Shown: piece after piece, positions 10,183-54,396 of the stretch
Layout of the letters: the number at the start of each line of letters is the position of its first letter
Numbering within the stretch: position 1 is the stretch's first letter
Assembly (NCBI GenBank): GCA_944324315.1
Contig: CALUVW010000004.1
Coordinates: 1 to 64,000 of the forward strand
DNA from: Candidatus Gastranaerophilales bacterium
Lineage (GTDB): Bacteria; Cyanobacteriota; Vampirovibrionia; Gastranaerophilales; Gastranaerophilaceae
Direction: 5' to 3'
Length of the DNA: 64,000 nucleotides
The notes under the pieces: generated by a model
What the model was told of the DNA's origin: nothing
The model's input: only the letters and a program-made list of their open reading frames with translations
The model's database searches: none
Made by a program: the position numbers and the translations under genes

Positions 10183-11432
10183 CTATTCCATCAGATATTT
10201 AGCAGAACAGCAAGCTCCTGCGATAACTTCTCCGGTCTGACCTGGAGCTGAGCCAATATATGTAGCATTTTGTGCACCTTTGTCAGGGGAGCACTCGCAG
10301 ACGTCTCCATTTGATGCTGTATCGTAAGTTCCTTCTGCACCCATTGGCTGCAAATAATGCTTTCCTGTCTTAATATTCGAAGTTACATGAATGACAAACA
10401 CATCACGGCCAAACTCATTTGGTCCTTTTTGAAAATTATTTACATCTACTACTATCCAAGGACCGCCATGACTTCCACCTAAATATATTACTGCTCCATC
10501 ATTTAGTAGAAGGGCAAGTCTGCTAAAGTTATATGCACTGATTCCATAAGGAGAATAACTGACGGGATTCGATTCTATTCGCACTCCTAATGCCTTATAA
10601 CGGGAATAAATATTCGCTACACCGCTCCACCTGTATTTAGCATTTTTTTCATACCAACTACTATTATAGTAATCACATATCTTTTCAGATGGAACATCTG
10701 GAGTTTTTATGCCGCAACAATCTATTATCTTTAACTTTGATTGGAATGATGAAATAAATTCATTTGTATAACTCTGCCCGTTACAATCGCCGTACTTAGT
10801 GTCGTTACAAATGGTTATCCCGTCTGCAGCTACTTCATTAAAAACATTGTTGATTACCGAATATTCTTTTTTCCACTTCGCTATATTTTGTTTGTTCTGG
10901 ATATTTTGGATGACAATTGATAACGTTAAGACTGCTACTACACCGATTACACCAAGAGTAATTAGAACTTCTGCGAAAGTAAAAGCGGCTCGTGTTTTAA
11001 GTAAAGAGTGAAAGTGGGAAGCGTCTATTTCTTCCTTATCCTCTGTGTGGGAGAAGGTGGTACGAAGTACCGGATCAGGGGTGCACCCGACACATTTAAC
11101 TACTTCTCCTATGGGAGAGGGTTGGGGTGGGTATTGATTTATACCTATCCTCTTGTCCTTCCATAATAAGGGAAGGAAGATGTTGCGTATTACCATCTCA
11201 CTTAATCCCTCTCCCAAGAGAGGGAAATATTTTTTTACGTTAAGGACTTTGCATCTTATAACGAGATACTGAAACAAGTTCAGGATGACGTTTCTTAAAC
11301 TGACTTTGCCTCTCTGCCTCTTTGCGTCTGTGCCTCCGGCGGAGCCTACAGTGCCCCCCCCCCGAGTACTATATTTATAGTAGTTTCTATATTATTAACT
11401 GTTTTTTTTAATAAATCTTTTAATTTTTTCAT
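10183..11432 (-). CDS. Prepilin-like protein, locus 2, with out-of-frame poly-G leader
   Basis: The body (uninterrupted from a TTG at 11277) has a prepilin signal, RAA|FTFAEVLITLGVIGVVAV, and a Cys-rich C-terminus (VCECSPDKG, GACCSAKY) shared with locus 5. The leader starts at ATG 11432 after GGAGTGAGAGT and encodes MKKLKDLLKKTVNN followed by a glycine run. With the 10 G at 11354-11363 it stops shortly after the tract. With 11 or 8 G it runs on without stop through about 110 codons to the signal. That stretch includes in-frame copies of two interspersed repeats (11101-11182 and 11214-11328), which makes the pre-signal region far longer than a normal leader of 6-25 residues. Function: pilus or pseudopilus subunit, inferred. 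Confidence 0.75.
11101..11182. repeat. Interspersed repeat type B, copy 1
   Basis: A C-rich element containing GGGTTGGGGTGGGTA and CCTTCCAT...GGGAAGGAAG arms. It resembles, in reverse orientation, the element at 53510-53611 in prepilin locus 6. In both loci it lies between the homopolymer tract and the prepilin signal and is translated in the body frame. Confidence 0.55.
11214..11328 (-). repeat. Interspersed repeat type A, in-frame copy in prepilin locus 2
   Basis: 115 bases that align without gaps, at roughly nine in ten positions by eye, with 15634-15748 in prepilin locus 3. Both copies are read in the same frame, giving DAKRQRG.VSLRNV.LNLFQ and IRCKVLN.KKYFP. The core GTCATCCTGAACTTGTTTCAG also appears as intergenic elements at 31960, 43579 and 43970. 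Confidence 0.75.
11354..11363 (-). repeat. Poly-G tract (10, coding strand) in leader of prepilin locus 2
   Basis: Ten C on the + strand, read as G by the gene. Flanked on the + strand by GTG and GAG. One extra base joins the MKKLKDLL leader to the prepilin frame. Confidence 0.9.
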
Positions 11433-11479: not shown

Positions 11480-12223
11480 TTATATTATATAAAATACAAG
11501 ATTAACTAAAAAATCTGCAACAAGCATATAAACGGTAGACAAAATTGCAGCCTGAGTTGTAGATGTTCCAACCTCTTTTGCACCGCCTTTTGTACTATAA
11601 CCTTGAGTTGCACAAACCAACGCTATTAATCCGCCAAATATCGCAGCTTTTAAAAGGCTTATATAAATATCTTTTGTAGAAATCCATAACCATGCAGAAG
11701 TCATATATCTTGCCGGATGCAAGTCAATTGCCGCATTTGATACAAGCATACCTCCAGCTATACCTATAAATTCTGCAATTAATACAACCATAGGAACAGT
11801 GACTATTCCTGCGATTATTCGCGGAGTAAAATAGTAGCCTACCGGATCAACCTTTAAGGTTTTCATAGCATCAACCTGAGAAGTTACCTGCATATTAGCA
11901 ATTTCGGCAGAGATGGCAGTGCCCGCTCTAGCCCCGATTGCAAGCGCAACAAACCCGGGAGCAATTTCTCTAATCATCACAACAGCAATAGTTCCGCCGA
12001 TATATGCCTCAGCTCCGCTCATCAAAAATTGCTTTGACACCTGAATAGTAATTACGGCAGCTGCAATAAACGCAATAATTAAAGATATCGGAAGAGAGTC
12101 GTAGCTTATTGCGGCAGCTTGAGAGATCACAGCCAATAATCTAACCTGAAACAAGTATTTTATACTCCGTATTAAATTTTGTACGCATAAACCAAAAAAT
12201 TCTATCAACAGAACTAACCTCAA
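11480..12223 (-). CDS. mlaE: MlaE-family ABC transporter permease
   Basis: 247 residues, typical of MlaE/YrbE permeases that move phospholipids between membranes with an MlaD-type partner and an MlaF-type ATPase. Family motifs: REIAPGFVALAIGARAGTAISAEIANM in the second quarter and AMKTLKVDP. About five hydrophobic segments span the protein. The start is a TTG at 12223, as no ATG fits the expected length; the start is therefore uncertain. It follows ilvE after a hairpin terminator. Neither mlaD nor mlaF lies in this window, so its partners must be encoded elsewhere. Confidence 0.88.
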   Translation of the reverse strand: MRLVLLIEFFGLCVQNLIRSIKYLFQVRLLAVISQAAAISYDSLPISLIIAFIAAAVITIQVSKQFLMSGAEAYIGGTIAVVMIREIAPGFVALAIGARAGTAISAEIANMQVTSQVDAMKTLKVDPVGYYFTPRIIAGIVTVPMVVLIAEFIGIAGGMLVSNAAIDLHPARYMTSAWLWISTKDIYISLLKAAIFGGLIALVCATQGYSTKGGAKEVGTSTTQAAILSTVYMLVADFLVNLVFYII

Positions 12224-14919: not shown

Positions 14920-15927
14920 AATAGCTTATTTTTCGCGGATAATCTTTAGGAATTTTCCAGCCGTTATTCTGAATTATAGCAGTACAATATGCCCCGCTAT
15001 CAGTGTCTGCACAACCTTGATATAATTCCTCCTCAGTCCCTCGCCAGTTATAACGCCATGGTTCAAAACCTTTATTAATATGATATTTCCATAAATATTT
15101 ATAATCATCAGCCACAACCGGCACAAATTCAAACGCAAAGCCGCAAACACCTCTTATATGCCACAGGTCTGACCGCTCAAGACATTTTAAAGGATTTTGC
15201 GGAAAAAACACCCAATCTCTTATATTATTAGGGTTTATCTGAGCTAAAGCCGAACCATCGGAAAAGTAAACGATAAAAGTATTTCCTGATAATGTATCAT
15301 ACCTCACAACATTCATAAATTTCCCAATATATTTATCAAACCAAGGCTGAGCTGCCGAAGCATCAGCTATAGGAGTTCCAAAAGAATCCATTCCGGTATT
15401 CGGAATATCTGTATACCAGTATTCTCTAGGACCATATTGAGCCTCAGACATTAATATTGCCTGATTAATTGCGGAATAAAACTTTTTAAGGCGAGTTTCA
15501 ACAACAGTATTTTTATGTTTTTGAATTAAAACAGGCATTGTCATAGCAGCAACCACACCGATTATGCCAAGTGTGATAAGAACTTCTGCTAAAGTAAAAG
15601 CTGCTTTTTTTACCCGTTCATTAAATTCCTGTTCCAGGGTAGGGAAATATTTTTTTATGTTAAGGACTTTGCATCTTATAGCGAGATGCTGAAACAAGTT
15701 AAGCATGACGTTTCTTAAACTGGCTTCGCTTCTCTGCCTCTTTGCATCTTCGCATCTAATTATGAGATCCCGAAACAAGTTCGGGATTACACTAATCGCT
15801 TGACTTCTTGACCTCCGGACTTCCTGACATCTATTTAGCCCTGAATTGCCCCCCCCCCGAGACTTTCAGACATTGTGACTTCTATACAAGATTGTACTTG
15901 CAACTCTTCTAATCTTAATCTTTCCAT
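14918..15927 (-). CDS. Prepilin-like protein, locus 3, with out-of-frame poly-G leader
   Basis: The body (uninterrupted from a TTG at 15778) has the signal KKAA|FTLAEVLITLGIIGVVAA and a C-terminus (CTAIIQNNGWKIPKDYP) shared with locus 6. The leader starts at ATG 15927 after AAAGGAG and encodes MERLRLEELQ and so on to a glycine run. With the 10 G at 15849-15858 it stops at a TAA soon after. With 11 or 8 G the frame is open through about 110 codons to the signal, including an in-frame type A repeat (15634-15748) and a second short relative near 15764-15790. A clear promoter lies upstream (15958-15986). Role: pilus or pseudopilus subunit, inferred from the signal. Confidence 0.75.
15634..15748 (-). 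repeat. Interspersed repeat type A, in-frame copy in prepilin locus 3
   Basis: Gap-free relative of 11214-11328. The translated product keeps RCKVLNIKKYFP and SLRNVMLNLFQ, so the reading frame of the repeat is the same in both host genes. Confidence 0.75.
15849..15858 (-). repeat. Poly-G tract (10, coding strand) in leader of prepilin locus 3
   Basis: Ten C on the + strand, flanked by ATTG and GAGAC. Adding one base joins the MERLRLEELQ leader to the prepilin frame. Confidence 0.9.
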
Positions 15928-16924: not shown

Positions 16925-19219
16925 ATGAGTATGCTTGATTTACTTTTTAAAAAGAAACCACAAGAAAAAAAAGACCAAAAACTAAACGAAGTTTATAACT
17001 CTTTAAAAGCTAAATATTCTTTTGATAATATTTCACAGAAAAGAAAAGATGAACTTAAAGCTTTGATAAAGAAATACGGCTATCTTCCTTATCCTTACAT
17101 AAAAGCATTAGAAGAACTTTCCACTGAAGAAATACTTTTCGGGCTTGAAATAAAATGGTCAGATAACGGTATTTTTAAAGCAGGTAAATTTAATTTTGAA
17201 AATAATCAGATTAGTGTTCTTGAAAGAAACCATATAAAAAATTCTTCCTGGATACAAAAAGAAGGGCATGACATCAAACTGATTAATCTTGCCGGTCTTG
17301 GTGACGGGAATAAAACAAAAGATACCGGAAAATTTATTGACTGGCTTCGTCAACTTCTGATACTGCCCACCGGAAATTTAAAAAATAATATATTTAATAC
17401 TACAATATATCTTATACCGTTTCACCCCAGAGAATTTGGCTGCGCTTATCTGCCAAAAAGTTCCGAAATAAGTGAAAATTTGTTTGATGAAAATATCGAA
17501 AAAATAACAGGATTAAATGCCAAAGAACAGGTTCAGACATTTATTATGATGGCACAACTGGCAGGGCATCCCGTAATATATGATATACTGCCGCAAACAG
17601 GCAGATTTTCAAAAGCTGTTCTTGCAAATCCCGAAATCGCCAGATGGTTTGATATCAATATTTTAAATAAAGAATTAAACGACAATATCGACAGAATTGC
17701 AAAAAACATGCCGCAATCTTTTGAAGAAGAAGATATTGAACTTGTAAAAAATATTTATAAAGATTCTCAAAGCGGTTCTTCCGGAGATTTAAGCTCACAT
17801 TTTAAAAATATATATGATACATTTGACAGTCTTATGACAGAGGCAAAAAAAGAACTGTCAAATGTTATGATGAAAAAAGAAAATCAAGAAAAAATACACA
17901 AACGAGCAAGAGATATAATAGCAAAAGTTCACGGGTTTAAAAACAATAGAAAACTCTCAGAAAATGATATAACCCGACAAATAGATGCAATACAGGAACT
18001 TATTAAAGAAGGATTGTGGCCTGCGCCAGGAGGAGCATGGTGTTCAGCCGGAGTACCGGTTTATGATAAGATGAGCGAATGCGGAGGCTATCCTACATTC
18101 AAACATTATGATTATAAAGGGGAAGATGTTACAAATTTTGCGAATCTCGATTGTCAGACACCATACTATTTCTGCTACCTTGAAAACGGAAGTTTTAATA
18201 CTCCTGTAATTAATTATTTTATTGATTACATGGTTAATCTGCAACGAGAATACAACTTTGACGGTTTTAGAGTCGATCATATTGATCATATAGTAGACAA
18301 AGTATCGGAAACAAACGGCAGACCGATAAGTTACAGAGCCCCAAGAGCAGTACTCAATAAACTCAACAAAACTTTAAAGAATAAGATCCCGTATTTCGGA
18401 ACACTTGCAGAGTATATGCTATGGGATGATTACCTGAAAGAATATCATAAAGGTATGAGCTTTGATCTATTATGGGGGAATGACATTGTTTCTCAATGCG
18501 AAAAAACTCCTGAAAAAATTACTGAAGATAACCAGCATCTTGCAAATTATAATACTAATTTCAAAAAGGTAGAGAAGTTATCAATACTAAAAACATACAA
18601 CAATCAGGACGGCGAATTCAGATGTATTGATCAATATCCGGGGCAGCTCAGCAAAAACGGAGCACTTTATAAATGGTTTAAATATAAATTTTTACCCGGA
18701 GGCAAATTTGCACAAAGACCTATGCTGTATGTTGACGGAGATGAAAGTTTCACACAAAGAGGGATTGAAAGCGTTATCGGAGAAGAAATTTCAATGCCGC
18801 GAGAAAAACATTTTGATTTTTATAAAAAATTTAACGCAATTGATATGTTTGTAAAAAATAATCCTATAATTACAGAAGGAGAAGCCCAGATAATTATACA
18901 GGATGATGACGGTTTTTGTGCCTGGATTATATCAAAAATTCCTGAAAAAACAGCATTTCTTGTTGTTTCAAACTATAAATATACTACCGAACGTGTAACT
19001 ATGTTTGATGAAAATAATAAAAGTTATTCGGAAATAATGCACAGCAAGCCGGTATTTGATAAAACGATCAATCTTCCTTCAGACTATGTAATTCAAAAAG
19101 AATTTTATATTGATGGAGACGAATTTATATCTGACACATTTGATTCTTCACTATCTTCGCTGCATTTTGACAAACTTGATCCAAGTGAATTTAGAGTGTA
19201 CGAATTAAAACGGGCTTGA
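16925..19219 (+). CDS. GH13-like alpha-glucan-active enzyme
   Basis: 764 residues. A TIM-barrel of the alpha-amylase clan is indicated by FDGFRVDHIDHIVD (nucleophile-type Asp near 451) and FGTLAEYMLWDD (acid/base Glu near 496), the two most conserved GH13 regions. The first ~300 residues are unusual, with VIYDILPQTGRF in place of the usual DxxxNH region I. A small C-terminal beta domain follows (MLYVDGDESFTQRG onwards). It likely rearranges or degrades storage glucan, or transfers glycosyl units, in the cytosol, as no signal peptide is seen. The exact substrate cannot be told. AAGGAAGT precedes the ATG; it lies just before prepilin locus 4. Confidence 0.8.
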   Translation: MSMLDLLFKKKPQEKKDQKLNEVYNSLKAKYSFDNISQKRKDELKALIKKYGYLPYPYIKALEELSTEEILFGLEIKWSDNGIFKAGKFNFENNQISVLERNHIKNSSWIQKEGHDIKLINLAGLGDGNKTKDTGKFIDWLRQLLILPTGNLKNNIFNTTIYLIPFHPREFGCAYLPKSSEISENLFDENIEKITGLNAKEQVQTFIMMAQLAGHPVIYDILPQTGRFSKAVLANPEIARWFDINILNKELNDNIDRIAKNMPQSFEEEDIELVKNIYKDSQSGSSGDLSSHFKNIYDTFDSLMTEAKKELSNVMMKKENQEKIHKRARDIIAKVHGFKNNRKLSENDITRQIDAIQELIKEGLWPAPGGAWCSAGVPVYDKMSECGGYPTFKHYDYKGEDVTNFANLDCQTPYYFCYLENGSFNTPVINYFIDYMVNLQREYNFDGFRVDHIDHIVDKVSETNGRPISYRAPRAVLNKLNKTLKNKIPYFGTLAEYMLWDDYLKEYHKGMSFDLLWGNDIVSQCEKTPEKITEDNQHLANYNTNFKKVEKLSILKTYNNQDGEFRCIDQYPGQLSKNGALYKWFKYKFLPGGKFAQRPMLYVDGDESFTQRGIESVIGEEISMPREKHFDFYKKFNAIDMFVKNNPIITEGEAQIIIQDDDGFCAWIISKIPEKTAFLVVSNYKYTTERVTMFDENNKSYSEIMHSKPVFDKTINLPSDYVIQKEFYIDGDEFISDTFDSSLSSLHFDKLDPSEFRVYELKRA

Positions 19220-19244
19220 CAAAATCAAAAAAATCGTAAATAAT
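19216..19244 (+). promoter_or_regulatory. Promoter of prepilin locus 4
   Basis: TTGACA at 19216-19221, 17-base spacer, AATAAT at 19239-19244. It starts directly behind the stop of the GH13-like gene and closely matches the promoter of locus 6. Confidence 0.78.
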
Positions 19245-19276
19245 AAATACAGTCAAGGAATGAGAGGAGTTTGAAA

Positions 19277-20183
19277 ATGAATAGAGAAAATGCTTTCAGG
19301 ATTACCTCCCCCCCCCGAAAACACTGATTATACAAGTGTTTTAAGCAAATCTAAATATCACTCAAATAGGAATAATAAATTTATTAACCCTTATAATAAA
19401 AGCAAATCCGCATTTACATTAGCTGAAGTTTTAATCACTCTCGGTATTATCGGCGTTGTTGCATCTTTGACTATGCCAGCTCTTATTCATAAATATCAAA
19501 AAAAAGCGCTTGAAGCTCAATACAAAAAATCCGTTTCTATTGTCTCACAAGTTATAATGAAAGCCAAAGCGGATTTTGGAATTGATAAATTTGGTGAATA
19601 CTGCACATACTACCCGCACGATCCTAGTTCTGGAATGCCCTATGATCATGCAGAAGAATGTTATCAAATTTTATTTAAAAGTTTATTTAATATTGATGGC
19701 CAAAAAACTCCCTATACCAAAAACGGACGGCTTGTACGCAGGGTTAATGATAATATCAAAACTTATAATAATAAACAAACATCCACACCAAATTCTCTTG
19801 GAGGTATAGGTTATACTATATTTGAAACATACGTAATGCCAGATGGAAGCTACATTAATTTTGATATTGTTGAATACTCACTTTATATAGGTATAGACAC
19901 AAATGGTGCTAAAAAACCCAATAAGTTAGGACATGATATCTTTATTTTTAAAGTAGATAAAAATAAAGATATTCTGGCTGCTGGAACTAACAAACCTCAA
20001 AATCTCTCAGACGAAGAAATTGAACAGGGAGATTATGAATCTGAACTCCTAGAAGCACGCGCCGGAAATCCGTGTAACTTAACCTCTAACCAAAAAGGAA
20101 ACGGCATTGGATGTGCATACTATAGTATAAGAAATCAATGTCCTTATGATTCAACTAAAACTTATTTTGAATGTCTGCCGTAA
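19277..20183 (+). CDS. Prepilin-like protein, locus 4, poly-C leader with two start frames
   Basis: The body carries the signal KSA|FTLAEVLITLGIIGVVAS and the same C-terminal cysteine pattern as locus 1 (GNPCNLTS, GIGCAYY, QCPYDS). After GAGAGGAG, ATG 19277 begins leader MNRENAFRITSPP, which stops soon after the present 9-C tract (19308-19316). It would be in frame at 8 or 11. A second ATG at 19290 (MLSGLPPPP) is in frame with the body at 9, so this locus may be expressed weakly now. Its 5' cassette is near-identical to that of locus 6, although the bodies belong to different subfamilies. The 3' end overlaps the convergent ligase gene by 22 bases. Confidence 0.82.
19308..19316 (+). repeat. 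Poly-C tract (9) in leader of prepilin locus 4
   Basis: Nine C preceded by ACCT and followed by GAAAAC. At 9 the downstream ATG 19290 is in frame; at 8 or 11 the upstream ATG 19277 is in frame; at 10 neither is. Confidence 0.9.
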
Positions 20184-42504: not shown

Positions 42505-43400
42505 TTAATATGAATATAATTTTACAGAACTGCAGCAGGAACCGGAAAGAAGATAACCGTTAAGCAAATCAGAAGATCCCAAAAATCCTTGTCCTGACTC
42601 AATGCCCGAATCAGGAGAACATTCACAATTATCGCCATTAGTATTTTTATTAAATGTTCCTTCTGCCCCTATAGGTTTAATCCAATCATCAGTAACCATA
42701 GCAGCAAAAAAATCTTTACCGAGTACATTGGGTCCTTTAGCAAAAGAATTAACATCAACAGCTATCATACCTGTAGCCCAGCCGCCGAAATAAATAGTCG
42801 TACCATCAGGTAATAAAATTGCCTTATGCATAAAATCCCAGCCTGTTCCTAAAGTCCCTCTATTAGGGCATGAGACAGGAGAAGTCTGTTTTCTTGTTCC
42901 TGCCGGAGAAGAAGTTTTTAAAGAATCATACATACTATAAGGAGTAGATCCGCCACATAAGCCGTTCCATGGCTGATAATAACTTGTACAATATTCACTT
43001 TCACCGTATTGCGGAAAACCGCAGCTTTCTATAACCTTGAAATGTGCCACAAACTTTGAAACAAATTCCGGCGACAAAGTTGCATACTCACTATTTTGTA
43101 AAAATTCTTTAGGTTTTGGACATTTTGTCGGAATATCAAAATCTCCTTCTTTAGTCTTTACGCATATATTACCGCCCATTTCATTCTTTACAAGATTGTA
43201 TACACCGGCAATTTCACTGTATTTCTTTTTCCACATGGAAGCAAACTGTTTATCCTGATAATTTTTTATGAATACAGGTAAAGTTATTGCAGCAACCACA
43301 CCAATAATTCCCAGTGTGATTAAGACCTCCGCAAGCGTAAACCCTCTTAAGAAGCTGCAGAACGCCCCCCCCCCGAAATTTTAATAATATCTCTTTTCAT
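42505..43400 (-). CDS. Prepilin-like protein, locus 5, with out-of-frame poly-G leader
   Basis: The prepilin signal is FLRG|FTLAEVLITLGIIGVVAA, followed by a body with the C-terminal ECSPDSG and GSCCSSV pattern shared with locus 2. No ATG, GTG or TTG lies between the tract and the signal in the body frame; the first possible start (GTG 43299) is inside the signal helix. ATG 43400, with AAGGAG ahead and a clear promoter, gives MKRDIIKIS, a glycine run, then AFCSFLRG, a normal ~20-residue prepilin leader, only if the 10-G tract (43365-43374) is 11 or 8 long. This is the simplest member and the best evidence that the leaders belong to the prepilins. Confidence 0.82.
43365..43374 (-). repeat. Poly-G tract (10, coding strand) in leader of prepilin locus 5
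   Basis: Ten C on the + strand between AACG and GAAAT. The leader stops at a TAA just beyond it. One extra base restores a 20-residue leader ending at the prepilin cleavage site. Confidence 0.92.
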
Positions 43401-53413: not shown

Positions 53414-54396
53414 ATGAATAGAGAAGATGCTTTCAGGATTGCCCCCCCCCCGAAAAGTCAAACGTAATTACATTTTTCAGAGATTTTAGAAATTATTTTT
53501 GTTTTAATATCATCCTTCCCTTGTCAGGGAAGGATAAGAGGATGGGTGACGATTTAAAATTATCCAAATTAACACCCACCCCTATCCCCTCCCTGATTAG
53601 GGAGGGAAGTACGCATGCTGCCACCTGTAACAGAAAACGTAAAGCTGCATTGACTATCTCCGAAGGAGCTACGCACGTTGCCCACTCTCACAATATTAGT
53701 CGAGCAGCTTTTACTCTGGCAGAAGTGTTAATCACCCTTGGTATAATAGGTGTGGTTGCGGCAATGACTATGCCAACAATTATTTCTAATCATAATAAAG
53801 CTGTAGTAGTAACTAAACTAAAATCAGCCCAGAGTATCATTACCCAAATGCTTACTATGGCAATAGTTGACCACGGTGATCCAAATACATGGGATTTTAA
53901 TAACGCTTTAGGCGCAGAGATAAGTGAAACTGAAAGTTTGATTAAATCTCTTACAGAAAAATATTTTCTGCCCTATTTGAATGATACCAAACATAGCGGT
54001 TATATGAGTTTGAAAGAAGCCGGTTATGAACCATATAAAACAGCAGACGGACAATATAATTATTCAAATCTAGGTGACGAAAGTAAAAAACAGTATGTGA
54101 TTGAACTTGCAAACGGAATAACTATTTTTGTTTATATGAACAGCAGTACAATGTCAGGGAAATTAACATCCGTTCTGTTATACATAGACGTGAACGGAAA
54201 GAAAAAACCGAATGTTTTCGGACGTGACACCTTTGTTGCGAATATAGATTCCACTACCGGACAATTTAAGTGGCTCTATAGTAGTCTTACACATGAACAA
54301 ATAATTAAAGAATGTAGTGGTAACGGTCTTTCCTGTGGAGCTCTAATCCAACATGACGGCTGGCAAATTACCGATAAATATCCGATTAGAATTTAA
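53414..54396 (+). CDS. Prepilin-like protein, locus 6, poly-C leader with two start frames
   Basis: The body (uninterrupted from 53521) has the signal SRAA|FTLAEVLITLGIIGVVAA and the C-terminus of the locus 3 subfamily (CGALIQHDGWQITDKYP). ATG 53414, after AAAAGGAG, starts leader MNREDAFRIAPPP. A second ATG at 53427 starts MLSGLPPPP. With the 10-C tract (53442-53451) both stop before the body. With 11 or 8 the first, and with 9 or 12 the second, reads into it. The stretch to the signal is open for about 85 codons and contains a type B repeat (53510-53611). The gene ends at a perfect bidirectional terminator. Role: pilus or pseudopilus subunit, inferred. Confidence 0.8.
53442..53451 (+). repeat. 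Poly-C tract (10) in leader of prepilin locus 6
   Basis: Ten C between ATTG and GAAAAG. At 10 both nearby ATGs are out of frame with the prepilin, so as written the locus should be off. Confidence 0.92.
53510..53611. repeat. Interspersed repeat type B, copy 2
   Basis: CATCCTTCCC...GGGAAGGATAAGAGGATGGGTG and CACCCACCCCTATCCCCTCC...GGGAGGGAAG. It resembles the element at 11101-11182 and is translated in the prepilin 6 frame. Confidence 0.55.

Follow-up and report, generated by a model that had tools for sequence, protein, structure and literature searches.

Does the pair of start codons ahead of the cytosine tract at one prepilin gene form a switch with three states, or is the reading frame of this gene set in another way? 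The gene, referred to here as locus 4, lies in a 64,000-nucleotide stretch of DNA (the window) from a gut Gastranaerophilales genome. An earlier note, made from the sequence of the window, had drawn attention to an ATG at 19277 and a second ATG at 19290, placed in different frames before a run of nine C, and had proposed that strong, weak and absent expression follow from the length of the run. The positions of both codons and their placement ahead of the tract are exact.

Layout and reading frames of locus 4

The features of the locus, in order along the gene, are as follows.

19216–19244, + strand: sigma70-type promoter, TTGACA-N17-AATAAT, by sequence; TTGACA and TAAATAAT are unchanged in 14 paralogous leaders
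19265–19269, + strand: Shine-Dalgarno sequence AGGAG serving the first ATG (anti-SD energy -8.6)
19277–19279, + strand: first ATG (ATG1; MNRENAFRI...), the main start; the prepilin is out of frame with it at nine C
19290–19292, + strand: second ATG (ATG2; MLSGLPPPP...), formed where AAT meets GCT in the ATG1 frame; matches the prepilin frame at nine C, has a weak ribosome site, and is not conserved
19308–19316, + strand: tract of nine C (C9), with ACCT directly before it
19317–19412, + strand: prepilin leader of 32 codons, from the tract to the mature N terminus, with no stop in the prepilin frame
19413–20183, + strand: prepilin-like body, FTLAEVLITLGIIGVVASL..., with an N_methyl domain

The assignment as a prepilin rests on a class III signal (GFTLxE-like) with a hydrophobic N terminus, for which Pfam N_methyl and TIGR02532 both scored over cut-off. 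With the F of FTLAEV at 19413, the distance to ATG1 leaves a remainder of 1 on division by three and the distance to ATG2 leaves 0, and ATG2 is therefore the only in-frame start of the two at nine C. Upstream of the tract at this locus, no ATG, GTG or TTG other than ATG2 was found in the prepilin frame. Lengths of 8 or 11 C would join the prepilin to ATG1, lengths of 9 or 12 C to ATG2, and 10 C to neither, which agrees with the frame states originally claimed for 8 to 11 C. The run is far beyond chance, with 17 windows of eight C observed against 0.15 expected, and it is very likely a slippage site that governs the prepilin frame. Locus 4 is unusual among its close paralogues, seven of which have G followed by C10 in place of ACCT and C9.

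Ten-base tracts and their frame offset

Five further tracts were found in the window.

666–675, + strand: C10 tract preceding a prepilin; its ATG1 is one base short
11354–11363, - strand: tract, G10 on the gene strand, preceding a 389-codon open frame; start one base short
15849–15858, - strand: tract, G10 on the gene strand, preceding a prepilin; start one base short
43365–43374, - strand: tract, G10 on the gene strand, 7 codons ahead of a prepilin; start one base short
53442–53451, + strand: C10 tract of locus 6; ATG1 at 53414 is one base short and ATG2 at 53427 two short, so neither is in frame

The long prepilin leaders (at least 55 codons; those at 11354–11363 and 15849–15858 and ~45 others in the genome) were observed to match dispersed repeats in large part, and copies of these repeats lie in other parts of the genome as well. 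Such matches were found for 45 of 46 long leaders, with a median of 35 matches outside, and the repeats are read through in frame from the tract to the mature protein.

A census of all contigs of the genome from which the window was taken (1.88 Mb, 34% G+C) identified 119 runs of at least eight C or G. Ten bases was by far the most frequent length, with 97 runs, against 3 of length 8, 9 each of lengths 9 and 11, and a single run of 12. Read on the C strand, 93 of the 97 ten-base runs are flanked by G at either end, and AGC is frequent ~10–12 bases upstream, whether the gene strand carries C or G. Among 114 prepilin-type N-termini, 81 have a run of at least eight in the leader. Two tracts (L011 and L012, contig C2, 94036–109924) are found again 11,033 bases further on in that contig with flanks and lengths unchanged, and this points to a tandem duplication of ~11 kb.

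At all 62 scorable ten-base loci of this genome, the prepilin frame is one base off the ATG with the ribosome site, always in the same direction. Between them these loci show 51 geometries, as defined by the base on the gene strand, the distance of the ATG and the length of the leader, and all three phases of the run against the ATG are represented; related copies among them are not independent, and an exact probability is not claimed. At each of the 62, translation in the default frame would reach a stop no more than 8 codons past the run (median 3, compared to 11.6 expected); in the third frame the median is 8 codons. The search that defined the 62 required an open prepilin frame, and openness there is no test in itself; a first scan in which an open frame was preferred, not required, found it in 71 of 72 cases. 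The bodies were intact, and over 13 pairs of tract-bearing prepilins the median dN/dS was 0.22, so that purifying selection on the bodies points to genes in use. Domains of a prepilin peptidase (PF06750) and a pilus/secretion ATPase (PF00437) scored over cut-off in the genome.

The same element, ten C between two G, was also found in non-prepilin genes, among them genes that encode glycosyltransferase-like proteins or a protein of unknown function with 917 codons (L088:4943, L118:8298 and other loci of this genome). Here the long frames join in frame at ten bases in 8 of 11 genes. Since these frames mostly join at 10, ten is the usual length in the DNA, with the prepilins set one base off from it. 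For one non-prepilin gene, the orthologs in this genome and in G020 are in frame at G10, and the one in G014 has an altered tract and is out of frame. For the C39 gene, a test for an inserted unit found the tract shared by the orthologs in G020 and G014 and missing in less similar relatives, with flanking sequence too diverged to delimit such a unit.

Ten-base runs were present in 29 of 33 genomes of the genus, at 3 to 169 each, and were rare outside it. Four genomes of the genus (G013, G023, G027 and G029) have no ten-base run, while most relatives have dozens. The named relatives within the genus are Gastranaerophilales/Melainabacteria assemblies from metagenomes, and one was deposited under the name Fusobacterium sp. 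CAG:439. Summed over 31 genomes of the genus, tracts of 9, 10 and 11 bases numbered 144, 1472 and 138. The one-base offset was seen at 30 of 30 ten-base loci in the other genomes. Loci of other lengths there comprised two 11-base tracts in frame, two 9-base tracts two bases short and one 11-base tract with an altered flank; these are the exceptions to be expected under the one-base rule. Repeat length and frame thus differ between alleles or lineages, with 9, 10 and 11 bases at the same class of locus.

Slippage, recoding and the second start codon

On this sequence evidence, locus 4 probably belongs to a set of ~80 prepilin genes with slipped-strand phase variation in a gut Gastranaerophilales bacterium, OFF at ten bases and ON at eleven. 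In each such locus an ATG with a strong ribosome site would be followed by a short leader, then by a run of C10 or G10 and a type IV prepilin one base out of frame, with a putative promoter of its own at locus 4 and its paralogues. At ten bases, translation from the ATG would end within 8 codons of the run; the gain of one base (11) or the loss of two (8) would join the frames and turn the gene ON. As the run is part of the leader, and the leader is expected to be cut off by the prepilin peptidase, the mature protein would be unchanged. Locus 4 itself, with an interrupted tract at C9, would be OFF from ATG1, and only the weak ATG2 could yield a leaky product. The geometry, the uniform one-base offset, the prompt default stop, the purifying selection on the bodies and the occurrence of lengths 9, 10 and 11 across loci and genomes are established by sequence comparison. 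A repeat of the hypermutable type lies in the coding region beyond chance, and its repeat number toggles the frame of an intact gene. We infer that replication slippage is the source of the length changes, that ON cells are rare, and that the products are displayed at the surface.

Several observations count against slipped-strand phase variation. Only ~8% of tracts are eleven bases long, and nearly all of these genes would therefore be OFF in every consensus genome. The mode at ten is sharper than a freely slipping tract might give, tract counts vary widely among genomes and are zero in some, and the prompt stop in the default frame would fit a recoding site as well. A prompt stop of this type is seen at known recoding sites. 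Programmed recoding, in which the DNA stays at ten bases while polymerase slippage adds a base in some transcripts or ribosomes shift by -1, would give all prepilins at a low constant level, and the uniform offset and near-uniform length speak for it. We nevertheless consider it unlikely. C and G in the mRNA work equally well, lengths of 9 and 11 each make up ~8% of tracts, and in the non-prepilin genes with a ten-base run the long frames mostly join at ten (8 of 11). A programmed -1 frameshift combines a fixed phase of the slippery run with a downstream stimulator; here all three phases of the run were seen, and no RNA structure was detected downstream (mean fold z 0.02).

An alternative of similarly low probability takes the element, which occurs in either gene orientation and in several gene classes together with an upstream AGCTnnGAATCG-like box, as a dedicated DNA device. 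The box would be recognised and the run held at, or reset to, exactly ten bases, which would place dozens of prepilins one step from ON and let single cells each show a few of a large repertoire; or the run would be a recoding site that drives all of them.

The three-state switch, in which ATG2 is selected so that 9 or 12 C give weak, 8 or 11 C strong and 10 C no expression, fares considerably worse and is in our judgement very unlikely. Its arithmetic holds at locus 4 and in the other open copies of the leader family, and ATG2 is the sole in-frame start at the present length. The contrast in ribosome sites was also borne out, with an anti-SD energy of -1.7 at ATG2 compared to -8.6 at ATG1. 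However, 43% of random ATGs in the genome have a ribosome site as good as that of ATG2. Relatives in which the second ATG is not conserved had been named as evidence against the switch, and among 71 listed homologues of the leader in other genomes of the genus it was open in none, being absent in 61 and closed by a stop in 10; the search pattern required C6 and a GCN codon, and this sample covers leaders of that type.

In the window's own genome, 24 C-sense leaders were scored, and the second ATG was open into the run in 7, closed by a stop in 4 and absent in 13. An eighth leader with a second ATG sits at a contig end and falls outside the 24. All open copies, those of loci 4 and 6 included, belong to one closely related MNRE(D/N)AFRI family, and two further members have the second ATG closed by a stop (C11, 15633) or missing (C33, 8278). 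Beyond this near-identical family it is missing or stop-closed. The argument that the arrangement is kept because locus 6 shares it did not hold, as the locus 6 leader is a duplicate of that of locus 4 (87% identity over query positions 1–106) and lends no independent support. ATG2 is built from the final AT of an AAT or GAT codon (Asn/Asp) and the G of GCT (Ala) in the ATG1 frame; it is present because the Asn/Asp codon before the Ala codon ends in AT, and these codons suggest that it is probably a by-product of coding sequence. The frame arithmetic and the strong and weak sites of the earlier note thus stand, while a selected switch is not supported. That reading missed a genome-wide and genus-wide system in which C10 is the usual state, with neither start in frame. 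On the simplest view, the tract of this copy stands at an OFF length, and its incidental ATG2 is in frame by chance.

An orthologous locus was also sought. A prepilin beside the IctB-like gene was found in only one named relative tested (L136, identical to the G004 locus), where a different leader with two tandem runs offered no direct test of ATG2, and the comparison of leader families was used instead. Tandem runs of C9 and C10, from a short duplication, were observed in one leader beside the IctB-like gene (L191:740–775; identical region in L136 near 12034–12069).

Also very unlikely is an assembly artefact in which real tracts of eleven bases, in frame, are reported as ten by short reads or assemblers: homopolymer calls are error-prone, G runs above all, and the reference and population lengths of a Bifidobacterium G tract disagreed (PMC9187656), but the same mode at ten occurs in genomes from different groups, with contig names that suggest different assemblers, lengths of 11 and 12 are present in the same assembly, and the non-prepilin genes are mostly in frame at ten.

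If slipped-strand phase variation is correct, each genome in this little-studied group of gut bacteria carries ~80 pilin genes that need a single slippage event to be expressed, which amounts to a very large store of surface variants. Default-off control could also be tested cleanly here: length and offset are uniform, and the single rule (11 is ON) is legible in metagenome reads. Automated gene calling will cut such genes short or misplace their starts, as at 19290. In the part of the literature covered by a search joining Gastranaerophilales with phase variation, no paper was found; one paper joins the group with prepilin.

Comparison with known systems

The lic genes of Haemophilus influenzae, with tetranucleotide repeats (e.g., lic2A), resemble locus 4 in having more than one ATG before the repeat, in different frames, with the repeat number picking the start. 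There the starts were reportedly tested by Dixon and colleagues in 2007; at locus 4, starts in different frames do precede the repeat, but a usable and maintained signal was not found at the second, which has neither a proper ribosome site nor conservation.

Phasome loci in Neisseria and Campylobacter have mixed ON/OFF states and tract lengths. Here, in contrast, a single gene family prevails, and its runs share one length and one offset and are flanked by G at either end. The likeness lies in the many genes switched by homopolymer runs, which are poly-G and poly-C in those phasomes (PMC5084427, PMC6321876).

The closest parallel in operation is Bifidobacterium breve, in which two sortase pilus loci are kept out of frame at a G tract (PMC9187656). 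At one of them ~30% of the population in mice carried the in-frame length, some ten times the level in culture; in-frame tracts were associated with pili and were enriched in mice (PMC9187656). Both cases concern a gut commensal in which a run splits a pilin precursor into a short, well-initiated frame and a pilin frame, with a default length that is out of frame. In B. breve, however, two sortase loci turn ON by losing one base (PMC9187656), whereas the ~80 type IV prepilin loci described here in one genome, with runs in C or G sense, would turn ON by gaining one. The present case would thus work alike with another class of pilus, at some forty times more loci.
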